Below are positions 6,319 through 33,475 of a DNA stretch of 43,876 nucleotides, in pieces. Origin of the DNA: an uncultured Spartobacteria bacterium (lineage in GTDB: Bacteria; Verrucomicrobiota; Verrucomicrobiia; Chthoniobacterales; Chthoniobacteraceae); the NCBI GenBank assembly GCA_903919125.1, contig CAIXGS010000063.1:1-43876 (forward strand), read 5' to 3'. The position numbers and the translations under genes are program-made. The notes below the pieces were generated by a model that saw only the letters and a program-made list of their open reading frames with translations, was not told the origin of the DNA and did no database searches. How positions within the stretch are numbered: the stretch's first letter is position 1; the number at the start of each line of letters is the position of its first letter.

Positions 6319-6361
6319 CTCGCTCGTCAAAAGATGTGCCACAAAACTTAGAATGTTCGCA

Positions 6362-7357: not shown

Positions 7358-7365
7358 AACGTCTC

Positions 7366-8298
7366 TTAGAGTGCCTCAGTCACCGCAGCAAGTAGCAGTG
7401 GAAGGTTGATTTCATGATGCCCCACCAAGTAATAGCCCTTCCCACCGAGAGCAGTCGGACGGCGCTGTACGTTTTCTGATGGCCGGTAATGCCGGGTCAT
7501 GTCGAAGGTCGCCGTCGTAAACTTCTCCACCTGATGACCAAGATTACGCGCGACGGTCAAAGCTTTAAGGAAAACTTCGGGCATAATGACCGCGCTGCCC
7601 ACATTTAAAACTACGCCCCCCTCCAACTGCGCACAAACGGCAGCGAAAGTTTGAAAATCTCTGTAACTGGTGGCGCCCAGTGCCGCCCCATCACAAGACG
7701 GATGTTGATGAATAATGTCGGTTCCCACGGCAATATGCACCGTCACTGGAATGTTAAAATCCGCGCCCGTCGCTAAAATAGAGAGATGGCGGTTGGGAAA
7801 GCCCAACGTGGCAAGCCCCAACGCCCGCCCTGCCCCAGTGTCCTCTGAGGCGCCCTGACGAAAAGCCTCGTTCATCAATGCTCCAGTTTCGTGTGCCATT
7901 CCAAAGGAACCATCGTTGAGCCCTCGCTGGACGTCCTCACTGGTTTCACCCTGAAAGCAGAGCTCAAAATCATGAATGGCCCCCGCCCCGTTGAAGGCCA
8001 CCGCCGAGAAAATCCCGCGCTTCATTGCGTCTACGATTAACGGATTAAGCCCGACCTTGATGGGATGAGCGCCCATCATAAGAAGCACAGGTCGCCCCGC
8101 CTGCACCGCCTCCGCGATGGCCAGCGCCACGGCTCGCAAATCCTGTACCGCCAAAAATGAGGGAAGAGCGTTAAAAAATTCCGTAAAGCTTCCACCGCGC
8201 ACATGCGGTCGCGCAAAAGCTTCCACCGCGACTTTATTGGAACGCTCCGCAACTGGAAACGTACGGATTTTGGAGAAGTCCAGGGGCGGAAAATGCAT
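7366..8298 (-). CDS. Deoxyhypusine synthase-like protein
   Basis: This is a 310-residue Rossmann-like protein of the bacterial deoxyhypusine-synthase (DHS) family. It shows MMGAHPIKVGLNPLIVD, AFNGAGAIHDFELCFQG (the NAD-binding stretch of DHS-like proteins), GTDIIHQHP and VLNVGSAVIMPEVFLKAL. Eukaryotic DHS transfers a butylamine group from spermidine to eIF5A. Bacteria lack that substrate, and some DHS-like enzymes make homospermidine, so the reaction here is unknown. The C-terminal part lacks an obvious equivalent of the conserved DHS lysine motif. The start is ATG at 8298; a TTG lies one codon upstream. Its tight link (8 bases) to rfaE1 suggests a role near sugar or envelope metabolism, which is inference. 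Confidence 0.8.
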   Translation of the reverse strand: MHFPPLDFSKIRTFPVAERSNKVAVEAFARPHVRGGSFTEFFNALPSFLAVQDLRAVALAIAEAVQAGRPVLLMMGAHPIKVGLNPLIVDAMKRGIFSAVAFNGAGAIHDFELCFQGETSEDVQRGLNDGSFGMAHETGALMNEAFRQGASEDTGAGRALGLATLGFPNRHLSILATGADFNIPVTVHIAVGTDIIHQHPSCDGAALGATSYRDFQTFAAVCAQLEGGVVLNVGSAVIMPEVFLKALTVARNLGHQVEKFTTATFDMTRHYRPSENVQRRPTALGGKGYYLVGHHEINLPLLLAAVTEAL

Positions 8299-8353
8299 CA
8301 AGATTAGCGATTAAAACTCGGCGAACGCTCGAAAACTTTAGGCCTTAGTTAAC

Positions 8354-8740
8354 TCAACCCAAATACGCTTGAAACGCCATCCATGAGTTCCAAGACGAAA
8401 AAAGAGCGGCGACGAAGAAAGCGAGTAATAGTCCAAAATAACTCGACCGCCCCAAATGCCACAGAGCGATAAACACCAGCAATGTGACTATGCCCATTAT
8501 CGAATAACTCAACCACTCAGGTTGCCCCTCCAAGAACACCAAGGAGCGCACTAAAAATCCGGGTAGCGTTGGCCAGGATTTTAGTAGGAGCAAACGCCGC
8601 TCGTCCCAAGGCCCCTCACGCAAGAGAATCCACGAAAACGGGGAGTATAGCGTAAGGAATATCAGCCCGAACACTAAAGCGCCTCGGGGCGGCTGTCCCT
8701 CAGAGAGGGGGAGCAGGAAAAGTTGACTGCGCTTGGACAT
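8354..8740 (-). CDS. Small integral membrane protein, unknown function
   Basis: The 128-residue product has about four hydrophobic segments: ALVFGLIFLTLYSPFSWILL, one around LPGFLVRSLVFL, MGIVTLLVFIALWHL, and FGLLLAFFVAALF. No family is recognised. The ATG at 8740 is chosen (MSKRSQLFLLPL...) because upstream starts such as TTG at 8863 add a polar stretch unlike a membrane protein N-terminus. It ends 55 bases before the DHS-like gene and may head the operon with the heptose genes. The hydrophobic pattern and lack of any overlapping better frame support it as real. Confidence 0.6.
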   Translation of the reverse strand: MSKRSQLFLLPLSEGQPPRGALVFGLIFLTLYSPFSWILLREGPWDERRLLLLKSWPTLPGFLVRSLVFLEGQPEWLSYSIMGIVTLLVFIALWHLGRSSYFGLLLAFFVAALFSSWNSWMAFQAYLG

Positions 8741-9008
8741 GTCTGTGTGAGAGAATGCTTCAGTTTGGTAGAATTTGTCATCGGTTTTTTTAGCGAGCTC
8801 CCCTCCCTCCGCTTTAAAAAAAGGGGTGAAACGGTGACAAACACGACTCAAACCCACTGGCAAACGTCTTTAGACGCTTTTCTGAAAGTTGATTCAGGCG
8901 CAAAACGCCATCCGAGGGAAGTTGTTATGACTGCCATTCAGTGGACCCGGCGCTCAAATACAAAGCCTCAACCTCGGGCTGATCAACCAACCTCCGCTCC
9001 AACCCAGT
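8741..9008. other. 268-bp intergenic stretch with a hairpin at its right end
   Basis: No convincing gene is seen. At 8999-9019 a perfect 7-bp stem (CCAACCC/GGGTTGG, 7-nt loop) spans the stop codon of the glycine-zipper lipoprotein gene. It is not followed by a T-tract on the minus strand, so it is a hairpin rather than a proven terminator. Confidence 0.4.
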
Positions 9009-9509
9009 TCACGGGTTGGTGAAAATACGACCACTGGACGGGTCGCGAACCTCCGCCCCATGTGGGATCCCTCGCACATTCACTAACTCCCCAGAATACG
9101 GTGAGTAAACGTAACCGTACCGTCCGCTATAGCGCCCCAGAGGGATGGAATGATGATGCCGGTGTTCGGGATACTCTGCGTAGCGTGGCTGAGGTGGCGG
9201 CACATACACAGGTTGCTGTTGCACATAAACCTGTGGCGCAGGGGGTGCATAGCCCGCAGAATTCTGCCCCGCTACGTAGCCCCTCGCACGCTCGCCTTCC
9301 GCGTACTTCCCAAGCGCATACCCACCAATGCCTCCAATGGCAGCCCCCTGCAATGCTCCCCGCCCCGTGCCCTTCAATAAGGCACCTGCAGCGGCACCCG
9401 CCCCAGCTCCCGCCAAAGCAGAATCCCCAGGGGTCTCGCATCCCGTTAATATCGTGGCAACCAAGGTCAAAGCTAGAGATTGGAAAACGCGCATCTTTAC
9501 TAGTCGCAT
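9009..9509 (-). CDS. Glycine-zipper outer-membrane-type lipoprotein
   Basis: The 166-residue product begins with a lipoprotein signal (MRLVKMRVFQSLALTLVATILTGC) whose lipobox LTGC gives an acylated Cys near residue 24. A Gly/Ala-rich glycine-zipper segment follows (ALAGAGAGAAAGALLKGTG and ALQGAAIGGIGGYALG), as in SlyB/RcpA-type 2TM proteins. The rest is Pro/Tyr/Gln-rich (YVQQQPVYVPPPQPRY), His-rich, and ends in a short beta-rich segment. The ATG at 9509 has AAGAGA five bases upstream; an ATG at 9494 is an alternative. Starts farther upstream put 50 residues before the signal peptide and are rejected. Such proteins sit in the outer membrane; no specific function can be claimed. Confidence 0.75.
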   Translation of the reverse strand: MRLVKMRVFQSLALTLVATILTGCETPGDSALAGAGAGAAAGALLKGTGRGALQGAAIGGIGGYALGKYAEGERARGYVAGQNSAGYAPPAPQVYVQQQPVYVPPPQPRYAEYPEHRHHHSIPLGRYSGRYGYVYSPYSGELVNVRGIPHGAEVRDPSSGRIFTNP

Positions 9510-9619
9510 TGGTCTCTTAATAACGAAAGTCGGGGTAAGACGATTCATCAGATTCATATGATTTGTGATTATTACACAGAATTGCGTTTCGGCAATCCGT
9601 TGGGAATAAAAATCAGAGT

Positions 9620-10471
9620 TCAGCGGCTGAGCAAAGTTTTTGCAAATACTGATACGGCAAGCCAAACCTTCCGTCTCCGGCTAAGGCGGTAAGCCTGTTT
9701 CCAGACCTGAAAGCCATCACTTTCCATGCGATCCAGCAAAGTCCCATACACCTTTCGCATGATCTCAGCAGCCACCATCACTCGCCGCTCCGAGACCGGA
9801 AGCGCCGCTGTAGCTGCCGCGTAATGCCCTCTGGCGCGGCCCACCTGAAACGCCATCAACGCCTTCCACCCCTTGGGCTCCCCGCTTACCCACTCCCCAG
9901 GCTCCACCCCGAACTGGGCCAATTCATCCGCCGGAAAGTACACCCGCCCCGAAACCGCAAAGTCCTCCGCAGAGTCACGCAAAATATTGGTCATCTGCAG
10001 AGCAAGCCCCAACTCCTCGGCGTACCGCTCACAGCCCGTTCCCCCAAAAATACGAGCGCTCACCAACCCCACTGCGCTCGCCACACAATAACAATAGCCG
10101 CGCAACTCTTCCCAAGTGCGGTAGCGCGTTCCCTCCAAGTCCATCTCGCAACCGCGAACTACCTCCAGAGCCCATTCCAGAGGGACAGAATGCCTCGCAA
10201 ATACGCGGCGCAAAGCGGAGGCAACGTGCGGCTCCCCCGGAACAGCATTTGCACGAAGCAACGCTTCCCGCCAAGCGCGCAGCCCCGCCCTGCGATCCTC
10301 CAGTGGCAAGCCAGGTTCATCTGCAAGGTCATCCACTTGTCTGCAGAACGCGTAAAATACACGCATATCTCTCCGTCGCCCCTGCGGCAATACGCGCAGC
10401 GCAAGGGCCAAGTTGCTTCCGCTCGCGGCGGTAATTGCTTCTGCTGTATCTGCGGCTTGCGAAACACTCAT
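9620..10471 (-). CDS. Squalene/phytoene synthase family protein (HpnC/HpnD/CrtB-type)
   Basis: The 283-residue enzyme is a trans-isoprenyl diphosphate synthase of the head-to-head class. The first Asp-rich motif is in FYAFCRQVDDLADEP (about residues 39-53), the second in LQMTNILRDSAEDF, with Arg-Tyr of GTRYRTWEELRGYCY between, as in CrtB and HpnD. Substrate is C15 (presqualene/squalene) or C20 (phytoene) diphosphate; the sequence alone does not settle which. The frame is open far upstream to 10894, but that part is antisense-like Gly/Asp-rich sequence inside the ABC gene. The ATG at 10471 overlaps the ABC stop as ATGA, so the two are translationally coupled. No HpnE, HpnC partner or desaturase is nearby. 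Confidence 0.88.
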   Translation of the reverse strand: MSVSQAADTAEAITAASGSNLALALRVLPQGRRRDMRVFYAFCRQVDDLADEPGLPLEDRRAGLRAWREALLRANAVPGEPHVASALRRVFARHSVPLEWALEVVRGCEMDLEGTRYRTWEELRGYCYCVASAVGLVSARIFGGTGCERYAEELGLALQMTNILRDSAEDFAVSGRVYFPADELAQFGVEPGEWVSGEPKGWKALMAFQVGRARGHYAAATAALPVSERRVMVAAEIMRKVYGTLLDRMESDGFQVWKQAYRLSRRRKVWLAVSVFAKTLLSR

Positions 10472-12180
10472 TCCCAGCGCCCCCCCTTGCACCCCCAATA
10501 CGCCAAGGACACTCCCAGTAAGGCTTGGCAAACCAACACCCCAACCACCATCTGCGACGAGGCCAGAGGCGTCTGCGTCATCGCCTGCACCGCCGTATAA
10601 AAGCGAGTATCCGAGAGCGTTTGCAGGAAACCAGCCCAGCCCCAATAAGACGCAATCAAGGGACGCGTCACCACGCCCAACCACTCCGGCAACGCCAACA
10701 CCGCACCTGAAAGTGGCAATTGGAACCCCACCAAGTAAACCGACACCAGCGAGCTTTGTTCCGCAGTTGCCATCACGCCAGAAATCCCCAAAGAAACCGC
10801 CGTCATAGCCGCGTTCACCAAGACTAGAAGCAGCGTTTGAGAGAGCAAACTGCCGGGCATCTGCACCACCAAATGCACGAAAAGCGACATCCAAACGCTT
10901 TGCACCGCCACGAGTACCGATAAAAACGCCACCTTTGAAACAATATAAGCTAGCGGAGTAAGCCCCGAAAACTTTTCTTTTTCCAGAATCAGACGTTCCC
11001 CAGCGATCTCTCGAGCCGCGTTATTTGCTCCCATGAGAGCCAGTAAAACCACTTGGAACATAATCAGCCCGGACACCATTCCCCCCACCCGCAAGTAATC
11101 CAGCTTCGCAGAAAAATCGCTCACCATCTGCTTGAGCGGATCCTCCGGCAACTCCGCCACCGCTCGCAGCGCCGGCAGGCCGTTGAGCGCAAACACCACC
11201 ACCAAACACGGGAATCCCAGCATCAGGGCCAACTGCAACCGCACCTGGCCGGGGTCTCGCCAAAATAGCTTCCAGCGCCGCGACAACACCACTCCCAGTT
11301 GCGTCGTAAACCCCGCGATGCGATGCTCTCGCTCGACGACCTCCTCGCTCTCGGCACTTGGCGGGGCACTCGGCGCGGCACTACCCACCGGCAACTTCTC
11401 GTAAGAAGTCTTATGCTTCTGCCAGGACTTCCCCCAATCCTCAGGCGTGCGCTGAGCCAGCGCTGGGTAAAGATCCTCCTGATGACTAATTCCGAAGTAA
11501 TGCAGCAGGTAAGCTGGAGATGCGTGGTATGCAAGAAAACCCTGAACCAGCACCACCACAGAATCGTGAGAGTTTAAGTGTTTTAAACTGTGGGTAATGT
11601 TTAACACCGTCCGCCCTTTGTCCGCGGCACTGCGCAACAACCCCGTTATCTCGTCTTCCGCCTTCGGATCCAACCCACTGGTGACTTCGTCGCACAAAAG
11701 CACACGGGGCGAGCTTACCAACTCCATCCCCAAAGCGAGACGCCGCCTTTGTCCCCCCGAGAGCACTTCCACCCGCTTTTCCGCAATGCTCGCCATACCG
11801 ACCTCCTCCAAAATCACGTCCACCCGCTCAGCGACTTCCTGCTGACTCAAGCCCCCGCAACGCAACCGCACGGCGTCTTCGATGCACTCCCACACCTCCA
11901 AACGCTCATGGGCGATGCTAAATTGCGGCACATAGCCCACCTCATGTGGTTCAAAATCGCCTTCCTCAGCCAGATTGCGCCCTTCCCAAAGGACGCTCCC
12001 AGCGGTCGCCTCTTTAAGTCCGGCAACCACTTTCATCAGTGTGCTTTTACCGCAACCCGACGGCCCCAAGACAGCTACCAAAAGACCGCCCCCCTCCACA
12101 CGCAGGCTAACATCCTGGAGCAAATAAACAGGGGCGTCCTCAGGACCTATCTGAAGGGCGATATTCTGGAGTTCAAGCAC
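10468..12180 (-). CDS. ABCG/White-type half transporter (ATPase + ABC-2 permease)
   Basis: This is a 570-residue fusion with the nucleotide-binding domain first. It has Walker A GPSGCGKST, signature LSGGQRRRLALG, Walker B VLLCDEVTSGLDP and a switch His in NITHSLKHL. A linker with a Ser/Pro/Ala-rich stretch follows, then an ABC2-type membrane domain with about six hydrophobic helices. This NBD-then-TMD order is the ABCG half-transporter layout, which works as a dimer and often handles lipids or sterols. The GTG at 12180 (VLELQNIALQIG) is chosen because GGAG and GAAGAG lie upstream; TTG at 12207 is the alternative. The stop overlaps the start of the squalene/phytoene-synthase-family gene by 4 bases, suggesting that the transporter handles that enzyme's lipid product (inference). 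Confidence 0.85.
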   Translation of the reverse strand: MLELQNIALQIGPEDAPVYLLQDVSLRVEGGGLLVAVLGPSGCGKSTLMKVVAGLKEATAGSVLWEGRNLAEEGDFEPHEVGYVPQFSIAHERLEVWECIEDAVRLRCGGLSQQEVAERVDVILEEVGMASIAEKRVEVLSGGQRRRLALGMELVSSPRVLLCDEVTSGLDPKAEDEITGLLRSAADKGRTVLNITHSLKHLNSHDSVVVLVQGFLAYHASPAYLLHYFGISHQEDLYPALAQRTPEDWGKSWQKHKTSYEKLPVGSAAPSAPPSAESEEVVEREHRIAGFTTQLGVVLSRRWKLFWRDPGQVRLQLALMLGFPCLVVVFALNGLPALRAVAELPEDPLKQMVSDFSAKLDYLRVGGMVSGLIMFQVVLLALMGANNAAREIAGERLILEKEKFSGLTPLAYIVSKVAFLSVLVAVQSVWMSLFVHLVVQMPGSLLSQTLLLVLVNAAMTAVSLGISGVMATAEQSSLVSVYLVGFQLPLSGAVLALPEWLGVVTRPLIASYWGWAGFLQTLSDTRFYTAVQAMTQTPLASSQMVVGVLVCQALLGVSLAYWGCKGGRWE

Positions 12181-12433
12181 ACTCTTCAATCTCCGCGTCG
12201 GCAACAAAAGTCAGCTTCAAAGGTAGATAAGTGACAAAAAAATCATCCATCTCAAAAAAGACAAATATCACTTCGGAGGGGGCATTTTCATTTAGGCCGC
12301 AATCCAAGACGATGCGCGCTAGTGTGTTGCGAGCCAGACTCCACCATTTTTCCTGCCCATTCCGATTCCTGAGAAGCGCGCTTTAGACAAAATTTGACTT
12401 GGCATAAGCCTCCATCTGGTTGTCTCTATCTTC

Positions 12434-12538
12434 ATGGGACACAATAAAGGTAAAGATAACAAAAAGAAACGCGCCGTGCGTCGCGCTAAGAATGACCGCG
12501 TCGTTGCAGCCACCGCCGAAGCCAAACACGCCGTCTAA
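12434..12538 (+). CDS. 34-residue basic mini-protein, unknown function
   Basis: ATG at 12434 to TAA at 12536-12538 encodes MGHNKGKDNKKKRAVRRAKN followed by DRVVAATAEAKHAV. It is strongly basic (about eleven Lys and Arg) in the first two thirds and Ala-rich at the end. A classical intrinsic terminator starts 12 bases after the stop on the same strand, the main evidence that a short plus-strand transcript ends here. A TTGACT at 12394 could be a -35 element but no good -10 was found, and there is no Shine-Dalgarno sequence. It could bind RNA or DNA by charge alone. It could instead be the 3' part of a small RNA rather than a coding gene. Confidence 0.5.
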   Translation: MGHNKGKDNKKKRAVRRAKNDRVVAATAEAKHAV

Positions 12539-12550
12539 TCGCAGTTTTAG

Positions 12551-12585
12551 AAACGATCGTCTCTTCGCGAGGCGATCGTTTTTTT
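12551..12585 (+). terminator. Strong rho-independent terminator
   Basis: A 13-bp stem (12551-12563 with 12569-12581, one G-U pair) has a 5-nt TTCGC loop and runs into seven consecutive T (12579-12585). It lies 12 bases after the stop of the 34-codon gene on the plus strand. Confidence 0.9.
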
Positions 12586-12617
12586 GTGCCCTTTTTCGAC
12601 TACCTTAACCCGCTTTA

Positions 12618-12651
12618 GCCCCCTGCCCGCGAAACTGCTCGGGCAAGGGGC
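12618..12651 (-). terminator. GC-rich hairpin after gpmI
   Basis: Arms 12618-12629 and 12640-12651 form 12 pairs (one G-U) around a 10-nt loop, 9 bases after the gpmI stop codon on the minus strand. There is no T-tract, so it may stop RNA polymerase less efficiently or protect the 3' end. It also faces the plus-strand mini-gene terminator, isolating the two convergent units. Confidence 0.6.
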
Positions 12652-12660
12652 CACTCATCA

Positions 12661-14199
12661 CTATTTTGCCACCACCAAATTGTGACCGGTCATGTCTGAC
12701 GGCTGGGCGACCCCCAAAAGGTGCAACAACGTGGGTGAGACGTCCGCCAGAATGCCATCCTTACAGGCCATGTGCGCCGCGTCGGCCCCGACGTAGACTA
12801 AATGCACTAAATTTGTGGTGTGCGCCGTGTGCGGCGAACCGTCGGGGTTGAGCATCTGTTCGCAGTTGCCGTGATCCGCTGTGATCAGCAAGCGCCCACC
12901 GAATGAGAGCGTCTTCTCCACCACGGCCCGCACGCAGTCGTCGATGGTCTCCACCGCCTTTATCCCTGCCTCCAAAACCCCAGTATGTCCCACCATGTCA
13001 GGATTGGCGAAGTTCAAGATCACCAAATCATATTGCCCAAGCCGTTCAGTCACCTCTCTGGTGACTTCTCCCGCACTCATTTCCGGCTTCAAGTCGTATG
13101 TCGCAACATCCTTGGGCGAGGGCACTATCACCCTGTCCTCTCCTTCAAACTGCTGCTCCACACCGCCATTAAAAAAGTACGTCACATGCGGATATTTCTC
13201 CGTTTCTGCAATCCGCAGTTGCTTGAGACCAGCGCGACTGACCACTTCACCGAGAATGTTCGATAAACTCTGCGGGGCAAAAACCACGGGCACGCCGTAG
13301 GTGCGATCGTACTCGGTGAGTGTGACATAATGAACCTTCGGCCAAACCTCTCTGTCAAATCCCGAGAAGTCATCGTCCAAGAACGCCACTGAAAGCTGCC
13401 GCGTGCGATCTGCACGGAAGTTAAAGAAAAACACCACGTCACCGTCACGAACGCGCTGCTCGTCGGGGTGCGAGAGAATTAAAGGTTTGAGAAACTCGTC
13501 CGTCTCCCCTAGCGCATACCGAGAAAGCAACTCCTCAGGCGCCGTTTTCTGTGCGCGCTGTCCCCGGCCTAGAACAATGGCGTCCCAGGCCAGTTTATTG
13601 CGCTCCCAGCGCTTGTCGCGATCCATCGCAAAGTACCGCCCGACCACTGTCGCAATCTGGGCTCCCGTCGGCGCGAGCCCCTCGGCCAGCTGCGTTAAAT
13701 ATCCAGCGCCCCCCGTCGGCGAAGTATCCCGGCCATCCGTGATCGCGTGAACGAGGATATCCTCCACTCCAGCCGCCTTCGCCACCTTCGCTAAGGCCAC
13801 CAAATGCTCCCAGTGGCTATGCACGCCGCCGTCGGAGACTAAACCAATAAAGTGCAAGCGCTTGCCTTTCGCCGCGGCAAACGTCTCCTGCAGCACCGCG
13901 TTCCCTGCTAAACGCCCTTCGCGGATACACAGATTTATCCGCGTCAAATCCTGATACACGACCCTTCCCGCGCCCAAATTGAGATGGCCCACTTCGGAAT
14001 TGCCCATTTGCCCATGCGGTAAACCCACGTCCTCTCCACTGGCAGAGAGCGTCGAATGAGGGTAACGCGCATAAATTTCATCGTGGAAGGGCGTACGCGC
14101 TAGCAGCGTAGCGTCTCCATTGACATGCGCCATCTCGCGGCCTCCGGGTTGAATTCCCCAACCATCACGAATCACCAACACAACGGGACTTTTGTTCAT
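12661..14199 (-). CDS. gpmI: 2,3-bisphosphoglycerate-independent phosphoglycerate mutase
   Basis: This 512-residue enzyme interconverts 3- and 2-phosphoglycerate in glycolysis using two Mn ions. The N-terminus VVLVIRDGWGIQP gives the first metal Asp12, and HGQMGNSEVGHLNLGAGR holds catalytic Ser68. The substrate-domain motif VHAITDGRDTSPTGG and the C-terminal metal set NPDMVGHTG, TADHGNCEQM and PHTAHT are all present. The length is typical (about 510). The ATG at 14199 is the only sensible start. It is followed by a GC-rich hairpin and preceded by another hairpin that separates it from mpl. Cofactor-independent mutases are usual in this kind of bacterium. Confidence 0.97.
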   Translation of the reverse strand: MNKSPVVLVIRDGWGIQPGGREMAHVNGDATLLARTPFHDEIYARYPHSTLSASGEDVGLPHGQMGNSEVGHLNLGAGRVVYQDLTRINLCIREGRLAGNAVLQETFAAAKGKRLHFIGLVSDGGVHSHWEHLVALAKVAKAAGVEDILVHAITDGRDTSPTGGAGYLTQLAEGLAPTGAQIATVVGRYFAMDRDKRWERNKLAWDAIVLGRGQRAQKTAPEELLSRYALGETDEFLKPLILSHPDEQRVRDGDVVFFFNFRADRTRQLSVAFLDDDFSGFDREVWPKVHYVTLTEYDRTYGVPVVFAPQSLSNILGEVVSRAGLKQLRIAETEKYPHVTYFFNGGVEQQFEGEDRVIVPSPKDVATYDLKPEMSAGEVTREVTERLGQYDLVILNFANPDMVGHTGVLEAGIKAVETIDDCVRAVVEKTLSFGGRLLITADHGNCEQMLNPDGSPHTAHTTNLVHLVYVGADAAHMACKDGILADVSPTLLHLLGVAQPSDMTGHNLVVAK

Positions 14200-14210
14200 A
14201 AGCTTTCAGA

Positions 14211-14232
14211 TGCCCGGAAAAACGGCCGGGCA
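14211..14232 (-). terminator. Hairpin between mpl and gpmI
   Basis: A perfect 7-bp GC-rich stem (TGCCCGG/CCGGGCA) with an 8-nt loop lies 44-65 bases after the mpl stop and just before the gpmI start (14199), both on the minus strand. There is no T-tract, so this may be a weak terminator or a leader structure for gpmI. Confidence 0.45.
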
Positions 14233-14275
14233 GAAGGTAAAAATGCATCAATACTACGGTCGATCAGAGGAAAGT

Positions 14276-15661
14276 TTACGCCAACGCGGCGAGCAAGCGT
14301 TCGTGAATATTATCGAAGCCTCCATTGGAGAAAATGACGATGACCTCGCCCTCCCGAACAGATTCACGGAGACGCTCTAAAATTTCGGGTACACCCACCT
14401 CATAAAAAGCTGGAATTTTCTTCGCAACAATATCCGCGACAACCTTTTGTGGATCCAATCGGTCCTCTGGTTGCAACTGATCTAAGCGCGCGACCTGAGC
14501 CAGGATGACGCCGTCAGCGTGTCCAAGCGCCTCAGGCAAATCGTGCTGAAATACCGCCCGGCGAGTCGTATTGGAGCGCGGTTCGAAAACCGCCCACAGT
14601 TTGCGCTCTGGGTACTGATGACGCAAAGCCTCCAATGTAAGGCGCATGGCGGTGGGGTGATGACCGAAATCGTCTATCACTGTGATTCCCCGCACCGTAC
14701 CGCGGACCTCCTGCCTGCGGGCAACGCCCTCAAAACTGGCCACCGCCGCTTGGATGGTCTCGTCAGGCACCCCATAGAACTGCGCGGCGACAATGGCCAT
14801 GGCGGCATTACGCACGTTGAACTCGCCAGGAATTTGCAGCTCAAACTCCAGATTCATCAAACTAAAGGACACCCCATTTCCGTAGCGAAGGGCATGAATA
14901 CGATGTGTCGCGACGTTAGAAAAACCGACGGTGAGTACGGGGCAACGGGCAGCGGAGGTAACTTCCAGCGCGTTAGCATCGTCGGCGTTCACCAAGAGGA
15001 CTCCGTTTTGGGGTACCAACAACACCAAGCGACGGAAGCTGGTTTTGATTTCGTCCAAACTGTTAAAGATGTCGGCGTGATCGAACTCCAAGTTGTTGAT
15101 CACGACCAACTCAGGGAGGTAATGCAAAAATTTCGACCGCTTGTCAAAGAAGGCGGTGTCGTACTCGTCTCCCTCCAAAACGACATGGCGACTTTCGTGC
15201 AAGGAGCAACCTTGGCCGAGGTTGCGGGCGATCCCCCCGATTAAATAAGCGGGGGCGAGGCCTGCGCACTGCAAAATCCAGGTGAGCAGCGAAGTGGTTG
15301 TGGTTTTTCCATGAGTGCCCGTGATAACGGCGTTACTGCGACCGCTTAGAAAGAAGCTGCGAAGCGCTTCGGGCAGCGAAATATAGCGCAGGCGACGGTT
15401 GAGGACTGCCTCTAGCTCTGGATTGCCCCGGGAAATGGCGTTACCCACAACGATGAGATCAGCGGTATCCGGAATGTTTTCGGCCGAGTAACCCGAGGAC
15501 AGAGTAATGCCGCGCTCAGTAAGAAACGTACTCATGGGCGGATACACGCCGGAATCCGAGCCGGTAACCACAAAGCCTTGGTCCCTAAGGGCTGCGGCTA
15601 CAGCGCCCATGGCCGTGCCGCAAATCCCGATGAAATGAAGGTGGCGGAAAGAAGTCTGCAT
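14276..15661 (-). CDS. mpl: UDP-N-acetylmuramate:L-alanyl-gamma-D-glutamyl-meso-diaminopimelate ligase
   Basis: This 461-residue Mur-ligase-family enzyme recycles cell-wall tripeptide by joining it to UDP-MurNAc. The first domain has HLHFIGICGTAMGAVAAAL and GSDSGVYPPMSTFL; the latter is typical of Mpl and differs from MurC. The ATPase P-loop is ITGTHGKTTTTSLLTW at about 113-128. LEGDEYDTAFFDKRSKFLHY distinguishes Mpl from MurC, and the C-terminal domain starts around VIDDFGHHPTAM. The length fits the family. The ATG at 15661 has CCTCC rather than a Shine-Dalgarno sequence upstream. Mpl implies a meso-DAP peptidoglycan with tripeptide recycling, consistent with a Gram-negative envelope. Confidence 0.95.
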   Translation of the reverse strand: MQTSFRHLHFIGICGTAMGAVAAALRDQGFVVTGSDSGVYPPMSTFLTERGITLSSGYSAENIPDTADLIVVGNAISRGNPELEAVLNRRLRYISLPEALRSFFLSGRSNAVITGTHGKTTTTSLLTWILQCAGLAPAYLIGGIARNLGQGCSLHESRHVVLEGDEYDTAFFDKRSKFLHYLPELVVINNLEFDHADIFNSLDEIKTSFRRLVLLVPQNGVLLVNADDANALEVTSAARCPVLTVGFSNVATHRIHALRYGNGVSFSLMNLEFELQIPGEFNVRNAAMAIVAAQFYGVPDETIQAAVASFEGVARRQEVRGTVRGITVIDDFGHHPTAMRLTLEALRHQYPERKLWAVFEPRSNTTRRAVFQHDLPEALGHADGVILAQVARLDQLQPEDRLDPQKVVADIVAKKIPAFYEVGVPEILERLRESVREGEVIVIFSNGGFDNIHERLLAALA

Positions 15662-15703
15662 GGAGGGTATTTTATAAATTAAAGAGGGAGGCCAAAAAGG
15701 ACT

Positions 15704-15877
15704 ATGGAGAGAAACGCCAAAGTGGAAAGCAGAGCATCAATGCGAAAAGCGATCCACTTCGAATCCTTGCGAATCCTGAAAAGCAGTATGCAAAGAGATG
15801 CGCCCTCAAAAAGCTCCAAAAAGCTCAGGGACATCTTCGACGCAGCTTGGAAACACTATCCGAAGCACTCTATCTGA
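15704..15877 (+). CDS. Possible 57-residue basic protein (doubtful)
   Basis: The 479-bp gap 15662-16140 holds no recognised gene. The best candidate is this plus-strand frame, which starts at an ATG preceded by AAGGA and encodes a Lys/Arg/Ser-rich peptide (MERNAKVESRASMRKAI...). No family resemblance, terminator or promoter supports it. The gap also has a possible stem near its right end (TCCCGC/GCGGGA, about 16112-16138) without a T-tract. It may be a shadow. Confidence 0.2.
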   Translation: MERNAKVESRASMRKAIHFESLRILKSSMQRDAPSKSSKKLRDIFDAAWKHYPKHSI

Positions 15878-16140: not shown

Positions 16141-18699
16141 TTAATCTGCGAGCACTTCGTACCAAAGGGCGCGGTGTTGGGGATCTAGTTCGAGGATGCC
16201 GTCCCGCAGGATGATTTCCTTACGCCGAATTCCGCGTTCATCAAGGGCCCAGACGCGAAACCGACCAGCGTTGGTCGGTAGCGAAATTGTCGCGCGCACG
16301 CCTTCGACAAGCGAGGGCGCGCGTCCCCAATCCTTTCCGACGCTCTCATGGGCCGCGCTGGTCCAACGTAAATCAGTGTTTTCGGCGCGCGCTGTAGCGG
16401 TGACCAGTAGCTTTTGCGGCGATGCGCTCCCCCGTTTTGGAAAGGCAAACGCCCTTTTTACATTTGAACTTATCAAGCGAGTCTCCAACGCCAAAACTCT
16501 TGGCTCCAGAGTCATCTGAATGCACGACCACTCGCTTTTGGGTTCAATGCGAACACCACCAAAGTCAAAAGTCATCCCACGAGTGAAGCCGACAAGCGCT
16601 ACGGAATAGGGTGTCTCAATCTTAAAAAACGGGTCCGTTTGAGTCGCCTTCTCTGTCGGATTCTGCGCTTCACGCCTTGGGTTCAACCCAACCGTTTGCA
16701 CCAAGGCTGTCAGCGATCCCACATCGACCGATAGGCGCCGTTGCATGGCGCTTCGCCGGTCAACGCCCGCATGAGTCGCGTCAATCAGCGGTCCGTGGTT
16801 ACGCGCAATTTCCATCGCGGCCTCGAGCGTGAACGTCGCCTTGACTGCATCAGCGGCTGGCTCCACGTCGCCGCGCAAAAACAGGGCGAGACTCGCGGGA
16901 AGCGTCGCCATTTTGACAGGGTGCTGGTCGATGTCGAAGAACCCAGCGATCGCCCCCTTATTCCAGTCGTCGCCGCGATGCGAATAGGCGAATGCGAACA
17001 CGCCATCCCAGTCCTGTCGGGCGGCAAACGCGCACAGCAGAGGGAAAGCTTCAGCGGAGAACTCGTTCGGAGCCGGATGACTGTATTCCGTGCAAATAAA
17101 CGGCTTATCTGAAACCCGTTTAGCGGCAAGGTCTGGCAGAATGCCTCCGTCGGGACGACCCGCCATCGGGATATTTTTGACTGTCCAAACCGCCTCGTTC
17201 CAATCGTTGCCGGAAAAGTCGGGATGCTGCCAGTAAGCGTGCGAGTCAATGACGTCGAATTGGCTTTGAATGGGAAAGGGCGACCAACCCAATTGAGTCC
17301 CCACTAGGGGGCTGCGCACCTTTAATTCGTCTTTCAGAAAAGTCCGCATATCCGACCAGTACCGTTGCTCCAACGTCCACAAAAACGCATACCATTCACG
17401 CTGGAGCGCCTCGCTCAAGCCATCGTATTGAGCACGAGTGATGGCAGTTTCAGGAATCTCGCCACTCAACGCCGCCGCTCTGAATGAAAGGTCCTTACAT
17501 TCGAGTTTTTGCGTTTCCAGACCGAATCCTGTGATCCCAACGCGAACACTCGATTCAGCCGTCTCTGGTGTTAAATGCACCGTTATATCCGACCATTCGG
17601 TTGCAAACTCCACACTCCGGCGGGCAAGTACTTTCCACGGTTCGCAGGACTGCATCAAAACGACCTCCGCACTCGTCGCCTTGCTTGCCCGAGCGCGGAA
17701 CGAAAAAGCATAGCGCTCTTTGGCTTGAACGGCAGGAAGTGGACAAAAAAATTGTGCATGCCAGGCTTCGCTTCCGGGCTTTTTAACGGTGAAAGTGAGC
17801 GAACCCTCCGCCGCTTCGCCCTGCGTAAGAGCCGCTCCGTGCTGTTCAAACGTCCAACCAGATTTTGGCAACAACTGCGCACCAGCGGCCCTTGTTCCCT
17901 TGCTGAATAAGGCATCGAGCTCTCCCCTCGACGTAAACTTCTCAGCTAGCCATTTTTTCCAAAGTAGCGACAGCTCTGTTCGATAAGGCGCTGCAATGTG
18001 ATCCAGAGTGCCGTAATGCCAAGAAGTCAGTAGCGAGTTTTCGTTGTTAATCTCGATGAGTGCGATTGCGGGCTCTGAATTGTAGGTGGCCTTCGTATAC
18101 GGATTTAAGTGAGTCAATAGGGCGCGTGCATATTCCTTTTGAAATCCGATCATCGCTGCACAAAAATTATCCACGCCCGCGTCAAACGGTGGATTCCCGC
18201 GCTTCTCATTTGTGGGCCGGTCTGGGTAAATGCGCGACACATGGAGGTTCAGATCCGTGTAAATTCCGTTCTTTTTGAGCTCCGCGATGAAGTAATCAAG
18301 CTTGTCTAATTGTCCCAGATCGAGGCTCCTCATGTCGGCTTTCCAAATACCTCCCGGCGCAGACTGCATATCGAGATGATGAAAACGCACGCAGTTGATT
18401 CCGAACTTCGCCATGCGCGCAGCGATCTTTTGCGAGTCAGCGTGCGTAGGAAAATTTGCCGCGAAAGCCAGATTCACGCCGAATAGGCGCAACCGCTTTC
18501 CACTGGCAAAAAGGTGTCCGTTTTTGACGAAAACAAACCCGTCGCGTCCTGCGGGTTTATCCAGCCAGGCGCTTAGATTCGTCGAGGAATCCGAGGCATC
18601 GTCCCATGGAAGCACGCACGGAAAACGATCCATGGGCTCAAGCGCCGAAAGCCAAGGCGCACCGATAATGAAACATGCTAGACAGGCTGATTTGCTCAT
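16141..18699 (-). CDS. Exported clan-A (GH5-like) glycoside hydrolase with an inserted carbohydrate-binding module
   Basis: The 852-residue protein starts at ATG 18699, which has GAGAGG upstream and a signal peptide (MSKSACLACFIIGAPWLSALEP). The N-terminal part is a (beta/alpha)8 barrel: GVNLAFAANFP, MAKFGINCVRFHHLD and NGIYTDLNLHVSR. The likely acid/base is Glu220 in LIEINNENS and the likely nucleophile is Glu538 in PFICTEYSHP, the usual retaining-enzyme pair. Between them, about residues 281-408, is a jelly-roll CBM4_9-like module (WHAQFFCPLPA, YAFSFRARAS, GITGFGLETQKLECKDLSF). A beta-rich C-terminal region follows. It is the last gene of the HlyD/synthase operon, 13 bases after the synthase stop, so it probably trims or releases that polymer. 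The substrate is unknown. Confidence 0.82.
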   Translation of the reverse strand: MSKSACLACFIIGAPWLSALEPMDRFPCVLPWDDASDSSTNLSAWLDKPAGRDGFVFVKNGHLFASGKRLRLFGVNLAFAANFPTHADSQKIAARMAKFGINCVRFHHLDMQSAPGGIWKADMRSLDLGQLDKLDYFIAELKKNGIYTDLNLHVSRIYPDRPTNEKRGNPPFDAGVDNFCAAMIGFQKEYARALLTHLNPYTKATYNSEPAIALIEINNENSLLTSWHYGTLDHIAAPYRTELSLLWKKWLAEKFTSRGELDALFSKGTRAAGAQLLPKSGWTFEQHGAALTQGEAAEGSLTFTVKKPGSEAWHAQFFCPLPAVQAKERYAFSFRARASKATSAEVVLMQSCEPWKVLARRSVEFATEWSDITVHLTPETAESSVRVGITGFGLETQKLECKDLSFRAAALSGEIPETAITRAQYDGLSEALQREWYAFLWTLEQRYWSDMRTFLKDELKVRSPLVGTQLGWSPFPIQSQFDVIDSHAYWQHPDFSGNDWNEAVWTVKNIPMAGRPDGGILPDLAAKRVSDKPFICTEYSHPAPNEFSAEAFPLLCAFAARQDWDGVFAFAYSHRGDDWNKGAIAGFFDIDQHPVKMATLPASLALFLRGDVEPAADAVKATFTLEAAMEIARNHGPLIDATHAGVDRRSAMQRRLSVDVGSLTALVQTVGLNPRREAQNPTEKATQTDPFFKIETPYSVALVGFTRGMTFDFGGVRIEPKSEWSCIQMTLEPRVLALETRLISSNVKRAFAFPKRGSASPQKLLVTATARAENTDLRWTSAAHESVGKDWGRAPSLVEGVRATISLPTNAGRFRVWALDERGIRRKEIILRDGILELDPQHRALWYEVLAD

Positions 18700-18702
18700 G
18701 GG

Positions 18703-18708
18703 CCTCTC
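18703..18708 (-). promoter_or_regulatory. Ribosome binding site that fixes the glycoside hydrolase start
   Basis: GAGAGG on the minus strand lies three bases before ATG 18699. This favours that start over an in-frame codon at 18780 inside the synthase gene. Confidence 0.6.
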
Positions 18709-18712
18709 GCTT

Positions 18713-20851
18713 TCAGACCGATTCCGCCAACGGGTACATGCGCAATCCAGCTCGGAGATATTCGAAAATGGCGCGCACATCTGATTTGCGTTTCACCTTC
18801 CATTGTCCGGGTCGGCAGTAAATATGCTCCACCAATGTACGGCGTTGTGGTAGAGATAGTTGTTTGAATATAAAACTGACTGTCCCCTCGGCATCGAGGC
18901 AGATTCGAACTGGGACATTTTCCCAACCCAAGGCGGCCATATTTAGCAAACCTTCAGCGGGATAACTGGACAGTGGAAGCGTACTTTTTGCTGTAACTTC
19001 ATTCTCCGAAAGAAGGAGCGATTTGCCACCAAGAGTGTGGGAGTCCCAATGGAGTTGGAAGTCGAGTGCGTGTTTGAATCTACGGAAAGGGTGGCAGCGA
19101 TGGATGTCCATCGACGCGAGAAGACACATCCAGAGCAGCGGAAGATTGCTCAGTGTGAAGTAAAGAATGATGCCGAAAAGTTCAGGATGCTCTCGGTTTT
19201 CAGCCGTGAAAAATGCAAGTGCCAGTCCAATTAAGTGCAACGCAATGAGAATGAAAAATGGAGTAGCGACTTGCAGGTTTAAAGTGAGTTGCTTGGGCCT
19301 GCGCGTTTTGTTCGTCACCCGGAAGCGCGCGCCAAACGGTCGAATCATAGTCCAAAGCACCGTGAGACCAATGGACGGCGCAAAAAACGTCTCGTAAAGC
19401 TCCGTCCATAGCGGCGAGCGGTATCCCAACGTCAACCACGAGTACAACAAGTAGTAACCTAAAATAAACGGCAACCGAAAGAATAGCATTTCAGCGATGC
19501 TCATTCGCAACATCATTATGCCAAAGAATAAATAGCACAAAGGCGCCAAGATGTTGAAAAGCGTGCAGGCGCTTCCCCCGTAGTACAGCATTCCAGAAAA
19601 ATGGAGCACCCGCTGCTTCCAGTTGAGTCCGGGAATGGTCAGCGGGTTCGTCGATGCGAAAATCCCCTGCAAAGTACCCTGCGCCCAGCGGGAGTTTTGT
19701 TGAATAAATTCTCCGCACGTATCGGCAGCCAACCCTGAGGAAAGCGCCTCGTTGAGGTACAATAGTTTGTGACCCATCGCCTGCAACTTGATCGAAGTCG
19801 CCCAATCTTCAGTGATCGTATCCGTCGGGATCAGACCGATTTCTTCCAAAGCACTGCGGCGCGCCACCCAGCTAGTGCCGTGGCATACAATGGCATTGAA
19901 GGTATCCCGACCGGGTTGCAGCACACGGAAAAAAAGGGTCTGTTCACCTTCGATCGCGCGTTCCAGACCAAGGTTGCGCTGGACAGAGTCTTGATTAAAA
20001 AAATGTTGGGGCGTTTGAACTAAAGCCACTTTTGGATCGAGAAAAAAGCCGACGGTTCGTTCCAGAAAATCGCGTGTGGGAATGAAGTCTGCGTCGAAGG
20101 AAACGACGAGTTCAGCGTGGGACTGTTTGAGGGCGTTATTGAGGTTGCCGGCCTTTGCGTGCGAGTTGTCAGGGCGATCCAGGTAGCGACAACCTAGGCG
20201 CGCCGCCAGGGACCGCATCACGGGTCGGCGCCGATCGTCGAGCAACCAGATGGTTTTGTTGGGGTACTCCATCGCCTGACATCCGATAATCGATCGCTCC
20301 AGCATTTCCATCGGTTCGGAGTAGGTCGGGATGAACACATCCACAGCAGGCAGGTATTTTCCGCTGCGCACGAATTGTGCTGAAACATCCGCTTGCGCCG
20401 AGCGGTTCGTTAGACGGAATAACGACAGGTATCCAAGGATGATGCGAACATGGAGAAAGACCTCAGAAGCGAAAAACAATAGGCTGAATACTGCGTTGAG
20501 CGGCGTGTCCAATTGGAGTGTCGCGACGAGGCGAAACACAAGGTAGCCCAGTTGCAAAACGACGAACACGATCGCTACCGGAACCCGCACCCAATTCGGG
20601 GGTATTTTGAACGCGGTGCGCAGAGTGATTGCCCACCACGCAACGAGAATAGCGGGCGTCATGATCCACATAGGAGAGACTGCCCCGCTGTCGAGTTGCA
20701 GTTGCCGGCGTCCCCAATGGATTACATGCTCCCAATACTGAAACAAAACTACCCAATCAGAGCTCCCGCAGATCCAATAAGCTGTAGGAAAAAGAATTAC
20801 AGCGAAAGCAAGCCGCTTCCAGCCCCGATTCATCGGCACTAATTTATTCAC
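18713..20851 (-). CDS. Cellulose-synthase-like processive glycosyltransferase (BcsA-type GT2)
   Basis: This is a 712-residue inner-membrane synthase with about eight transmembrane segments around a GT-A domain. Its catalytic signature is complete: VDVFIPTYSEP (171-180), DD 205-206, DAD 253-255, TED 347-349 and QNSRW 385-389. FRVTNK at 510-515 matches the FxVTxK gating loop of BcsA. The FFCGS-equivalent reads IVCHGTS. The C-terminal cytosolic region (about 584-700) sits where PilZ lies in BcsA, but lacks clear RxxxR and (D/N)xSxxG motifs, so c-di-GMP control is doubtful. The start may be GTG 20851 or ATG 20833, neither with a Shine-Dalgarno sequence. It follows the HlyD gene by 56 bases. No BcsB or BcsC is nearby. 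The polymer could be cellulose or another beta-glycan. Confidence 0.88.
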   Translation of the reverse strand: MNKLVPMNRGWKRLAFAVILFPTAYWICGSSDWVVLFQYWEHVIHWGRRQLQLDSGAVSPMWIMTPAILVAWWAITLRTAFKIPPNWVRVPVAIVFVVLQLGYLVFRLVATLQLDTPLNAVFSLLFFASEVFLHVRIILGYLSLFRLTNRSAQADVSAQFVRSGKYLPAVDVFIPTYSEPMEMLERSIIGCQAMEYPNKTIWLLDDRRRPVMRSLAARLGCRYLDRPDNSHAKAGNLNNALKQSHAELVVSFDADFIPTRDFLERTVGFFLDPKVALVQTPQHFFNQDSVQRNLGLERAIEGEQTLFFRVLQPGRDTFNAIVCHGTSWVARRSALEEIGLIPTDTITEDWATSIKLQAMGHKLLYLNEALSSGLAADTCGEFIQQNSRWAQGTLQGIFASTNPLTIPGLNWKQRVLHFSGMLYYGGSACTLFNILAPLCYLFFGIMMLRMSIAEMLFFRLPFILGYYLLYSWLTLGYRSPLWTELYETFFAPSIGLTVLWTMIRPFGARFRVTNKTRRPKQLTLNLQVATPFFILIALHLIGLALAFFTAENREHPELFGIILYFTLSNLPLLWMCLLASMDIHRCHPFRRFKHALDFQLHWDSHTLGGKSLLLSENEVTAKSTLPLSSYPAEGLLNMAALGWENVPVRICLDAEGTVSFIFKQLSLPQRRTLVEHIYCRPGQWKVKRKSDVRAIFEYLRAGLRMYPLAESV

Positions 20852-20907
20852 TGTGTATTTGAGGCGTTGCGCGGCTGTTCACCAGTTCGACTTCCCTTTT
20901 GGGACTG

Positions 20908-21966
20908 TCAAAATCCACTTTGTTCCCTACTGATGCGTAGCATCATCGACGGCTCGTCCTTCGTTTTTGGAAGGCTCACCACCACGCTGCGACCCACTCC
21001 AAAAAACTGGCTAGCCGAAAACGGCGGCTGCGTTTCGGAACGTACACGCACCGCGATTCGTCTCCGAGTCAGGTCGCTGGAGGGAAGCGCCACGAAGCTC
21101 TCCGGATCCAGCCGCCCGACGCCTGCCCGCACCGATTCAACCCGTCCACTCCAAGTCTCCTCCCCGTCCACTGTCCGAATGTTTACCAGAGTCCCGACGG
21201 CAAATTTATCTACGTGTCTCTCGTTGATAAATGCTTCTACCCAATAATTTGCGGGATCGATAATTTGCGCGACAGACTCCTGCGGCCCAACCTGACAGCC
21301 ATTCTGAGCGCGCACCGCCCACACCACGCCGTCAAAGGGCATCGTCACAGTCGCGTGCCGTTGTAATGTCACGAGTTGTTCCACCTGACGCACTCGTTCC
21401 TCTGCGGAGCGCAGTTGCTCCTTTTTTTGCTCCACGGCCTGACGGCAGATAGACACAAAAGTCTCCTCTTCCATAAACCGCAATTTCGGCGTGAGGTTGT
21501 CCTTATAGAGTGACTCGTATAGCTGAAAAATTTGCTCCTGCTTAGAGAGTCGTAATTCGGTGTCGTTCAACTCGGCTCTCAAGCGATCGACGAGCTCGAG
21601 TAAGGGCATTGTTTCCAGATTATTAAACCGCTGGTTTTCAACATGAAACAAGTCGACTCCGCGAGCCACTCGCTCCCCCGGACTGAGCGCCGAAATCTGT
21701 AGTTGTCCCGCGATCGGTGCACGCAGGGAAGTGACGCTTGTATTCAGGTAAGCTTGCTCGCTTTCCACCTTCGTGAGGGTACGTTGCACAAACAGACAAC
21801 CGCCCACAGACATGCCGGCGGCGAGGGTGAATCGCACCGATTGAAAAAGCCAACGCCTCCAGCGAGAGGTAGACAGCGCCTCCAGCGCCTCACTAATTTC
21901 TGCAGCAGACGCTTGCTGCTGTAAGCCCATAGACTCCATGGATATGGTGTTGCCTTTTGTATTCAT
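20908..21966 (-). CDS. HlyD-type periplasmic adaptor (membrane fusion protein)
   Basis: This is a 352-residue adaptor. A cytoplasmic lead of about 35 residues is followed by one transmembrane helix (FTLAAGMSVGGCLFV). Then come a biotinyl-lipoyl half (LRAPIAGQLQISALSPGERV), a long coiled coil (about LELVDRLRAELNDTELRL to QVEQLVTLQRH) and the second lipoyl half (ATVTMPFDGVVWAVRAQNG). The beta-barrel part is WVEAFINERHVDKFAVG. ATG 21966 is preceded by GAGGAGGAG, the best ribosome site seen in this window, so the frame upstream to 22005 is excluded. Adaptors of this kind link inner-membrane machines to TolC-like channels. Being first in an operon with a BcsA-like synthase, it probably guides polymer across the periplasm. 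Confidence 0.87.
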   Translation of the reverse strand: MNTKGNTISMESMGLQQQASAAEISEALEALSTSRWRRWLFQSVRFTLAAGMSVGGCLFVQRTLTKVESEQAYLNTSVTSLRAPIAGQLQISALSPGERVARGVDLFHVENQRFNNLETMPLLELVDRLRAELNDTELRLSKQEQIFQLYESLYKDNLTPKLRFMEEETFVSICRQAVEQKKEQLRSAEERVRQVEQLVTLQRHATVTMPFDGVVWAVRAQNGCQVGPQESVAQIIDPANYWVEAFINERHVDKFAVGTLVNIRTVDGEETWSGRVESVRAGVGRLDPESFVALPSSDLTRRRIAVRVRSETQPPFSASQFFGVGRSVVVSLPKTKDEPSMMLRISREQSGF

Positions 21967-26062: not shown

Positions 26063-27301
26063 TCAGCTACCTTTAGCGCACGCCAATCTTACGCGAGCCA
26101 TGGCAGAGGTCTGGCGTTCTTGCAGGATGGCTTGAGCCCTGTGCACCCTGCTCGCCGCAGCCGCGGGATCTTTCGCAATGGAAAGCACTGCAGGCACGAT
26201 CCCAGCTAATTCCCCCTCTTGATCCAGGTCGAAAAGCCATTCGCCTAGTCCGATATCTTTCCACATATTACCCTTGGAGGTCTGTTCGGCCCAACGGCAC
26301 ACAATCGCCGGAATCCCGTTGCCAATGCACATGATTGGCGAATGCATCTCGTTACCAAAAAGCCCTGCGCTGTGCGTATAGACGCTCAACGCCTCGTCGG
26401 TGAGCCAATAGTCGGGCCGCCAGACCACTCGCGACTTCACCGCCTCCGGTAATGGGTCGAGAAGAATCTCCTTACCCAACTCCATCTGAGTGCGATCCTC
26501 GGGGCAAATGAGCACCTTGAGTTCCGTCTGCTTGACGATCTGGATAATTGCCTCCCGCAACTGCGCGTGATCGTGCTCCTTGAACTCGTCGTTGCGCTTT
26601 TGCTTGGCCGCGTCAAAAGGCCGCTCCTTTTTAATAAGCCAGTACGGAGTGTTGCGATAGCGCGGGATGCAACACATGAACTTGCCGGAAATCAGCCCGT
26701 TGACCTGCAAGAAAGCCGCGGCTTTTTCCTCATTGCGCAAGTCCGTGGCGAACGCACCATCCGGCCCGAATTCCATCACCGGACACTTCGCCCCCGCCTC
26801 CTGCGCCGCCCGAAGTGAGACGGAATCCCTAAAGTAAACGAACTGCGCGCCGTTGAATATTTCGAGTGTAGCCTGGCTGTGCTGACTCGCTGTGATTCCT
26901 AAAATGCCGTACGGCTTTTCGCCTAGTTGCCGCCAGCGGGCCACATCTTTTTCGGCAACGAGCGAGGGCCCCGAGCCGTGCAAAAGAAAGTCATTTTCGT
27001 CGTAGAGCCCCTGAAGATCGGCATTTCCAGACTGAATTTTTAGCTTCGGGAAACGGCGCTGCAACATCTCACCCACCCCGTTATCCACGCTACTGGGCCA
27101 CAGGGTAATTTGCGCAGCGGGAAAATGCCTTTCCAACAACGCTAGCATCCCTGGCGTGTGGGCGATGTCGCCGATATTCACAGTCTGCCAAGACGACCTC
27201 AGAACGACTCGCGGGGCCCGCTGTCCCTCACTGGCACCAGCAAATCGCGCGGTCAGTGTGGCGAGGAATGAGGCTTCAAGAAAGCGACGTCGGGAGAACA
27301 T
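26063..27301 (-). CDS. Polysaccharide pyruvyl transferase-like protein with a Tat signal
   Basis: This is a 412-residue protein of the polysaccharide pyruvyl transferase (PS_pyruv_trans) family. It has NIGDIAHTPGMLALLERHFP near the N-terminus, HGSGPSLVAEKDVARW, GFDRDS-like FVYFRDSVSLRAAQEAG and a C-terminal HSAGLFGNEMHSPIMCIGNG. Family enzymes use PEP to add ketal pyruvate to exopolysaccharides, normally in the cytoplasm. Here the N-terminus is MFSRRRFLEASFLATLTARF, a twin-arginine signal (SRRRFLE then a hydrophobic stretch), so the protein appears to be exported, where PEP should be scarce. It may therefore use a different substrate. ATG 27301 is divergent from yceH. It heads the run of exported enzymes. 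Confidence 0.75.
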   Translation of the reverse strand: MFSRRRFLEASFLATLTARFAGASEGQRAPRVVLRSSWQTVNIGDIAHTPGMLALLERHFPAAQITLWPSSVDNGVGEMLQRRFPKLKIQSGNADLQGLYDENDFLLHGSGPSLVAEKDVARWRQLGEKPYGILGITASQHSQATLEIFNGAQFVYFRDSVSLRAAQEAGAKCPVMEFGPDGAFATDLRNEEKAAAFLQVNGLISGKFMCCIPRYRNTPYWLIKKERPFDAAKQKRNDEFKEHDHAQLREAIIQIVKQTELKVLICPEDRTQMELGKEILLDPLPEAVKSRVVWRPDYWLTDEALSVYTHSAGLFGNEMHSPIMCIGNGIPAIVCRWAEQTSKGNMWKDIGLGEWLFDLDQEGELAGIVPAVLSIAKDPAAAASRVHRAQAILQERQTSAMARVRLACAKGS

Positions 27302-33453: not shown

Positions 33454-33475
33454 AGCGCCCTTAGAAGCCGTTATT

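Follow-up and report, generated by a model that had tools for sequence, protein, structure and literature searches.

A probable XcsA/XcsB-like, HlyD-coupled glucan synthase operon in a member of the Chthoniobacteraceae

How the polymer made by a glucan synthase leaves the cell when BcsB is missing is an open question, and it is raised here by a three-gene operon of an uncultured Spartobacteria bacterium (Verrucomicrobiota, Chthoniobacteraceae; assembly GCA_903919125.1). The operon lies on the stretch that we call the window, positions 1 to 43,876 of contig CAIXGS010000063.1, 43,876 nucleotides in all. It encodes, in this order, an HlyD-type adaptor, a BcsA-like glycosyltransferase family 2 (GT2) synthase and an exported glycoside hydrolase. 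An earlier note made from the sequence had taken it for a tripartite polysaccharide export machine analogous to a cyanobacterial route, with the hydrolase as editing enzyme. We propose instead a synthase-dependent polysaccharide machine of the XcsA/XcsB kind, in which HlyD replaces BcsB, probably independent of cyclic di-GMP (c-di-GMP) and probably acquired horizontally; taken together, we consider this reading likely. The features are as follows.

20908..21966, minus strand: HlyD/EmrA-type periplasmic adaptor (XcsB/BgsB-like), 352 residues (HlyD_3, HlyD_D23, cyanobacterial kinship, structure model)
18713..20851, minus strand: BcsA/XcsA-like GT2 processive glycan synthase, 712 residues, with a degenerate C-terminal PilZ region (TIGR03030, BcsA structures, motifs, tree)
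18739..19100, minus strand: former PilZ domain, approximate coding segment (alignment, motif table, no Pfam PilZ match)
16141..18699, minus strand: exported clan-A glycoside hydrolase, like glycoside hydrolase family 5 (GH5), with a family 4/9 carbohydrate-binding module (CBM4/9) inserted in the barrel (Pfam, profile matches, invariant Glu)
14276..15661, minus strand: flanking murein-ligase (mpl)-type gene at the edge of synteny (kept across the genus; DNA similarity ends at 15765)

Anatomy and kinship of the synthase-adaptor pair

The open reading frame (ORF) listing of the window bears out three same-strand genes, with gaps of 56 bases between HlyD and synthase and 13 bases between synthase and hydrolase. 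The HlyD gene starts at an ATG at 21966, preceded by AGGAGG, and has its stop at 20908; the synthase has a GTG start codon at 20851 and ends at 18713; the hydrolase frame is open from 18780, with a signal-peptide start at ATG 18699 and its stop at 16141. Scans for promoters and terminators did not exceed shuffled sequence in the number of sites, and neither an ATP-binding cassette (ABC) nor a major facilitator superfamily (MFS) partner gene lies within the operon. BcsB and BcsC, already noted as missing from the window, were also undetected genome-wide by searches with PF03170 and PF05420, in a draft genome of 95% completeness to which all our whole-genome negatives refer, and the PF03170 search does detect BcsB in relatives. 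Orthologues elsewhere in the genome, which the earlier note had named as evidence that would count against it, were thereby sought and not detected.

A GT2 domain is recognised in the synthase by Pfam and NCBIfam; the protein matches TIGR03030 (CelA) at 1.3e-126 with 423 bits, under the curated cut-off of 699, and solved BcsA structures at 8e-81. The full motif set attributed to it is present: for the BcsA-type residues D, DxD, TED, QxxRW and FxVTxK it carries DAD, TED and QNSRW as catalytic motifs and FRVTNK in the gating loop. Its nearest sampled relatives are cyanobacterial XcsA-type synthases, 40-43% identical over the full length. Matches at 1e-60 were found in 60 of 96 cyanobacterial genomes, the top ones with 40-45% identity and up to full length. 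Within the window's class, 20 of 384 genomes match at 1e-40, the window's own counted and the others at 32-37% identity, and the 11 other genomes of the genus hold no comparable synthase, the best same-genus match being partial at 31%. When named genomes were searched with the synthase, six loci only were returned, none from the window's phylum.

Trees of the synthases, a first one of 80 and a careful one of 47, show three large groups. The BgsA-type group, which includes Sinorhizobium meliloti BgsA, has HlyD adjacent in every row, at most a few hundred bases from the synthase in the loci fetched; the BcsA-type group has BcsB adjacent in most rows and HlyD in none; the third is the cyanobacterial XcsA-type group, in whose subclade nearest to the window HlyD is adjacent in 10 of 13 rows. 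HlyD pairing is tied to particular synthase clades in the sampled tree. The window synthase is basal or sister to the cyanobacterial clade, with support of 96/97, and S. meliloti BgsA (L222) falls in the other clade at 100/100.

The adaptor matches HlyD_3 at 1e-14 and HlyD_D23 at 2e-12 in Pfam, HlyD domains alone being found in it and no PilZ-HlyD fusion, and its layout comprises an N-terminal membrane anchor, barrel-sandwich halves and one alpha-hairpin (about residues 117-203). The coiled coil claimed earlier is predicted as this single hairpin, with two helices each about 42 residues long (117-157 and 160-203), in a model of moderate confidence (mean pLDDT, the predicted local distance difference test, 66.5) that we use for fold class only; its top Foldseek matches are EmrA, MacA and AcrA. 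Among the adaptors compared, the nearest by BLAST are cyanobacterial (L137, L145) and stand directly upstream of XcsA-type synthases, and the window and cyanobacterial adaptors have C-terminal barrel motifs in common (GVGR...ALP, or AIP/AVP, then FxxGVG/IGxS). Because the nearest relatives of both proteins are HlyD-synthase partners in cyanobacteria, synthase and adaptor appear to have a common history. The earlier note was right in describing an HlyD-synthase pair free of BcsB and BcsC; the word 'analogous', however, gives way to homology, since with its nearest relatives in cyanobacteria the operon is homologous to the XcsA/XcsB type.

The nearest relative, G007, is 92-95% identical in amino acids for most shared genes and is collinear with the window from 5784 to 15765, whereupon it diverges at the edge of the operon; the synteny break concerns the left-hand edge only. 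The murein ligase gene at this edge is present in all 12 genomes of the genus and the synthase in none of the other 11. The isolation of the operon in the genus, the break at its edge and the position in the tree together make it likely that the synthase-adaptor pair was acquired horizontally. G+C content is 51-53% over the synthase and about 55% around it, and the operon is not clearly marked as foreign. At the far end of the window, a stretch of about 140 bases (43736-43876) has two matches on one G007 contig (L205:937-1074 and, less long, 19090-19133), and is possibly a dispersed repeat.

The earlier note had also proposed looking for such pairs across the phylum. They do exist in other members, but their synthases fall in the BgsA-type group, and the window's type is absent from the other same-genus genomes. 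Other synthases of the phylum are of Bcs type and come with BcsB; both kinds are more distant from the window synthase than the cyanobacterial ones. The pairs at L084, L085, L086 and L087, from other families of the phylum, group near S. meliloti BgsA, with HlyD and synthase genes overlapping by 11-14 bases and with the PilZ signature intact in the two that were checked (L084 and L086); we regard them as candidate beta-glucan operons of this phylum. Several further arrangements came to light in the loci collected. Genome G173 holds both an HlyD-paired and a Bcs-type synthase (L070, L073), with a BcsB match near the latter; in cyanobacterial L165 and L166 BcsB is directly upstream of the synthase, opposite to the usual bcsA-bcsB order; and in cyanobacterial L128:6208-11061 a single HlyD gene is followed by two tandem XcsA-type synthases. 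On pSymB of S. meliloti ABS7 (L035:6025-8035) an unannotated bgsA is split over two frames beside an intact bgsB, and is whole in the S. meliloti record L222. Within 15 kb of the window's own operon there are a polysaccharide pyruvyl transferase-like gene (26063-27301) and a second GT2 gene (33389-34720).

The C-terminal region of the synthase and c-di-GMP

The C-terminal region of the synthase aligns with the PilZ domain of its cyanobacterial relatives and keeps the terminal signature (YCRPGQW...MYPLAESV in the window, YCQPGQW...LHPLAESR in the relatives). The c-di-GMP signature is lost: HPFRR stands in place of RxxxR and LLSENE in place of D/NxSxxG. No Pfam PilZ match appears in the window synthase even at E<=1, and all six relatives scanned alongside do match. 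In BcsA the gating loop is locked by a salt link between Glu371 and Arg580 (PMC10374906). The window synthase has Asp at the position of this Glu and His at that of its Arg partner. Genome-wide, no GGDEF protein was detected, by a search that was positive in eight control genomes. Since the PilZ switch has decayed and no diguanylate cyclase is detectable, the synthase is probably not controlled by c-di-GMP. The loss is not unique to the window, for some cyanobacterial relatives in the wider clade are likewise without the PilZ motif. Because a functional PilZ domain is missing, the pair is an XcsA/XcsB-like variant and not a plain member of that system.

Proposed mechanism and competing explanations

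In our model, the inner-membrane GT2 synthase would polymerise a nucleoside diphosphate sugar, most likely uridine diphosphate glucose, and the predicted product is most likely a beta-1,4-type glucan. By homology to BcsA, the chain would be threaded through the synthase's own membrane channel; HlyD would then take the place of BcsB at the periplasmic exit, and its hairpin might hand the chain to a TolC-type channel. The genome encodes four TolC-type (OEP) proteins, three of them beside their own adaptor or pump genes, as read from start sequences and gene order. The fourth, an orphan without its own pump (L218:5884-7353, G000:C46), is the best candidate for the exit channel and likeliest to be the outer-membrane partner. 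Of the tripartite export machine proposed earlier, HlyD and a synthase without BcsB or BcsC, in an operon that lacks ABC and MFS partners, are borne out, and the TolC step stays conjectural. The exported hydrolase behind the pair, of a locally common family, may trim or release the polymer.

A number of points weigh against this reading. Identity between the adaptor and its cyanobacterial counterparts is only about 30%, and the window adaptor's hairpin is about 85 residues shorter than theirs; the synthase joins the cyanobacterial clade basally on a long branch (1.44), which leaves the exact donor unfixed. The operon contains no outer-membrane gene, the absence of BcsB, BcsC and GGDEF proteins is drawn from an incomplete draft, and no evidence here fixes sugar or linkage. 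The cyanobacterial XcsAB-TolC export model itself has been described as unvalidated experimentally (PMC12430437).

A different view of the product is that it is mixed-linkage (1,3;1,4)-beta-glucan, as for rhizobial BgsBA, acted on by the hydrolase with its laminarinase-like CBM4. In Rhizobium etli, deletion of BgsA and lichenase digestion tie the HlyD-synthase pair to this glucan; the tested HlyD-paired synthase does produce it, and its HlyD partner has been suggested to belong to the export channel (PMC9495663). The module inserted in the window's hydrolase is, moreover, closest to that of laminarinase 16A. We nevertheless think this product unlikely, for the window synthase groups with the cyanobacterial cellulose-type synthases, apart from S. 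meliloti BgsA, and the hydrolase barrel finds its best profile matches in GH5 mannanases (1.6e-5 to 6e-3). HlyD proteins also commonly partner ABC, MFS or resistance-nodulation-division (RND) pumps, and the best solved match of this one is EmrA; it might serve a pump encoded elsewhere, for efflux or type I secretion, and stand beside the synthase by chance. We give this very little credence: the operon holds no pump gene, synthases paired with HlyD are found again in cyanobacteria, in Alphaproteobacteria and elsewhere in the window's phylum, and the adaptor's nearest compared relatives are partners of XcsA-type synthases. An HlyD of a type I secretion system was rejected, with no pump nearby. 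That the locus is decaying after transfer, with an inactive synthase, would fit the long branch and the unrecognised PilZ region, but we hold it to be quite improbable, given that no catalytic or gating motif is lost and none of the three reading frames is broken, that some cyanobacterial relatives also lack the PilZ motif, and that losing the inhibitory salt link could release activity instead of abolishing it.

The role of the hydrolase is less settled. Its export and clan-A nature, as claimed before, agree with the signal-peptide start and the Pfam matches (CBM_4_9 at 9e-7, above cut-off; Cellulase, GH5, at 3e-4, just below it); profile searches relate the insert to CBM4/9, and the candidate catalytic residues E221 (in NEN) and E539 (in TEY), numbered on an 853-residue translation begun one codon earlier, are invariant across 17 homologues. 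A single-sequence structure prediction, with a pLDDT of 32, was set aside. Members of the family are present in 47 of the 286 genomes of the class, frequently as several paralogues. At 29 other homologue loci, with flanks of about 1.5 kb in most, neither synthase nor adaptor stands alongside, and no homologue was found in any synthase locus fetched, sampled cyanobacterial loci included. With a family so widespread, and beside a synthase at 0 of 29 other loci, the notion of a dedicated editing enzyme is not supported; the probable origin of the third gene is the local gene pool, and only its position links it to the polymer. The same facts would suit an enzyme that breaks down environmental mannan or glucan and is tied to the synthase by location alone, a reading that we take seriously while rating it somewhat short of an even chance. 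The 13-base same-strand gap, which suggests co-transcription with the synthase, speaks against it, as does the endoglucanase gene XcsC of some cyanobacterial operons (PMC12430437), an arrangement that may have been rebuilt here with another enzyme.

Going further, one may imagine that the HlyD-synthase pair, an export cassette sufficient in itself, passed from one phylum to another and was later freed of control by c-di-GMP. The outcome would be a constitutively open synthase working with a housekeeping TolC and with a hydrolase recruited locally; this is a tentative scenario, and we would sooner doubt than believe it as a whole. What we take to be new is an XcsA/XcsB-like, HlyD-coupled glucan synthase outside the cyanobacteria with its c-di-GMP switch apparently lost. 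The occurrence of synthase and adaptor together outside cyanobacteria, in a genome without detectable BcsB, BcsC or GGDEF proteins, argues for these two genes as the machine's core, and a possibly c-di-GMP-independent synthase, one adaptor and one orphan TolC make a small test case.

Comparison with known systems

HlyD-synthase pairing is already known, rhizobial BgsBA being the tested example, and annotated pairs occur in S. meliloti, Ensifer, Agrobacterium, Bradyrhizobium and on Rhizobium plasmids; literature searches on a pairing of HlyD with a cellulose synthase in Verrucomicrobia brought up nothing relevant. The window resembles BgsBA in having the two genes in one operon with HlyD first, and the synthases are 37-38% identical over the core. 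BgsA, however, binds c-di-GMP through a special C-terminal domain, and membership of BgsBA was rejected because the window synthase belongs to another well-supported clade, apart from S. meliloti BgsA. With the Bcs operons (BcsA-BcsB-BcsC-BcsZ) it has the synthase core and the catalytic and gating motifs in common, but membership was likewise rejected: BcsB, BcsC and a family 8 glycoside hydrolase (GH8) BcsZ are missing from the operon, HlyD is there instead, and PilZ is unrecognisable. The alginate pair Alg8-Alg44 also joins a GT2 synthase to an HlyD-like partner; Alg44, in contrast, is a PilZ domain fused to HlyD, whereas the window's adaptor has no PilZ and its synthase is CelA-like. Closest is the cyanobacterial type IV cellulose system, XcsA/XcsB(/XcsC), which the window matches in the synthase beside HlyD, in gene order and in the absence of BcsB and BcsC, and from which it differs in the missing PilZ c-di-GMP signature, the shorter adaptor hairpin, a third gene for a hydrolase without homologue in the sampled cyanobacterial loci, and a host outside the cyanobacteria.

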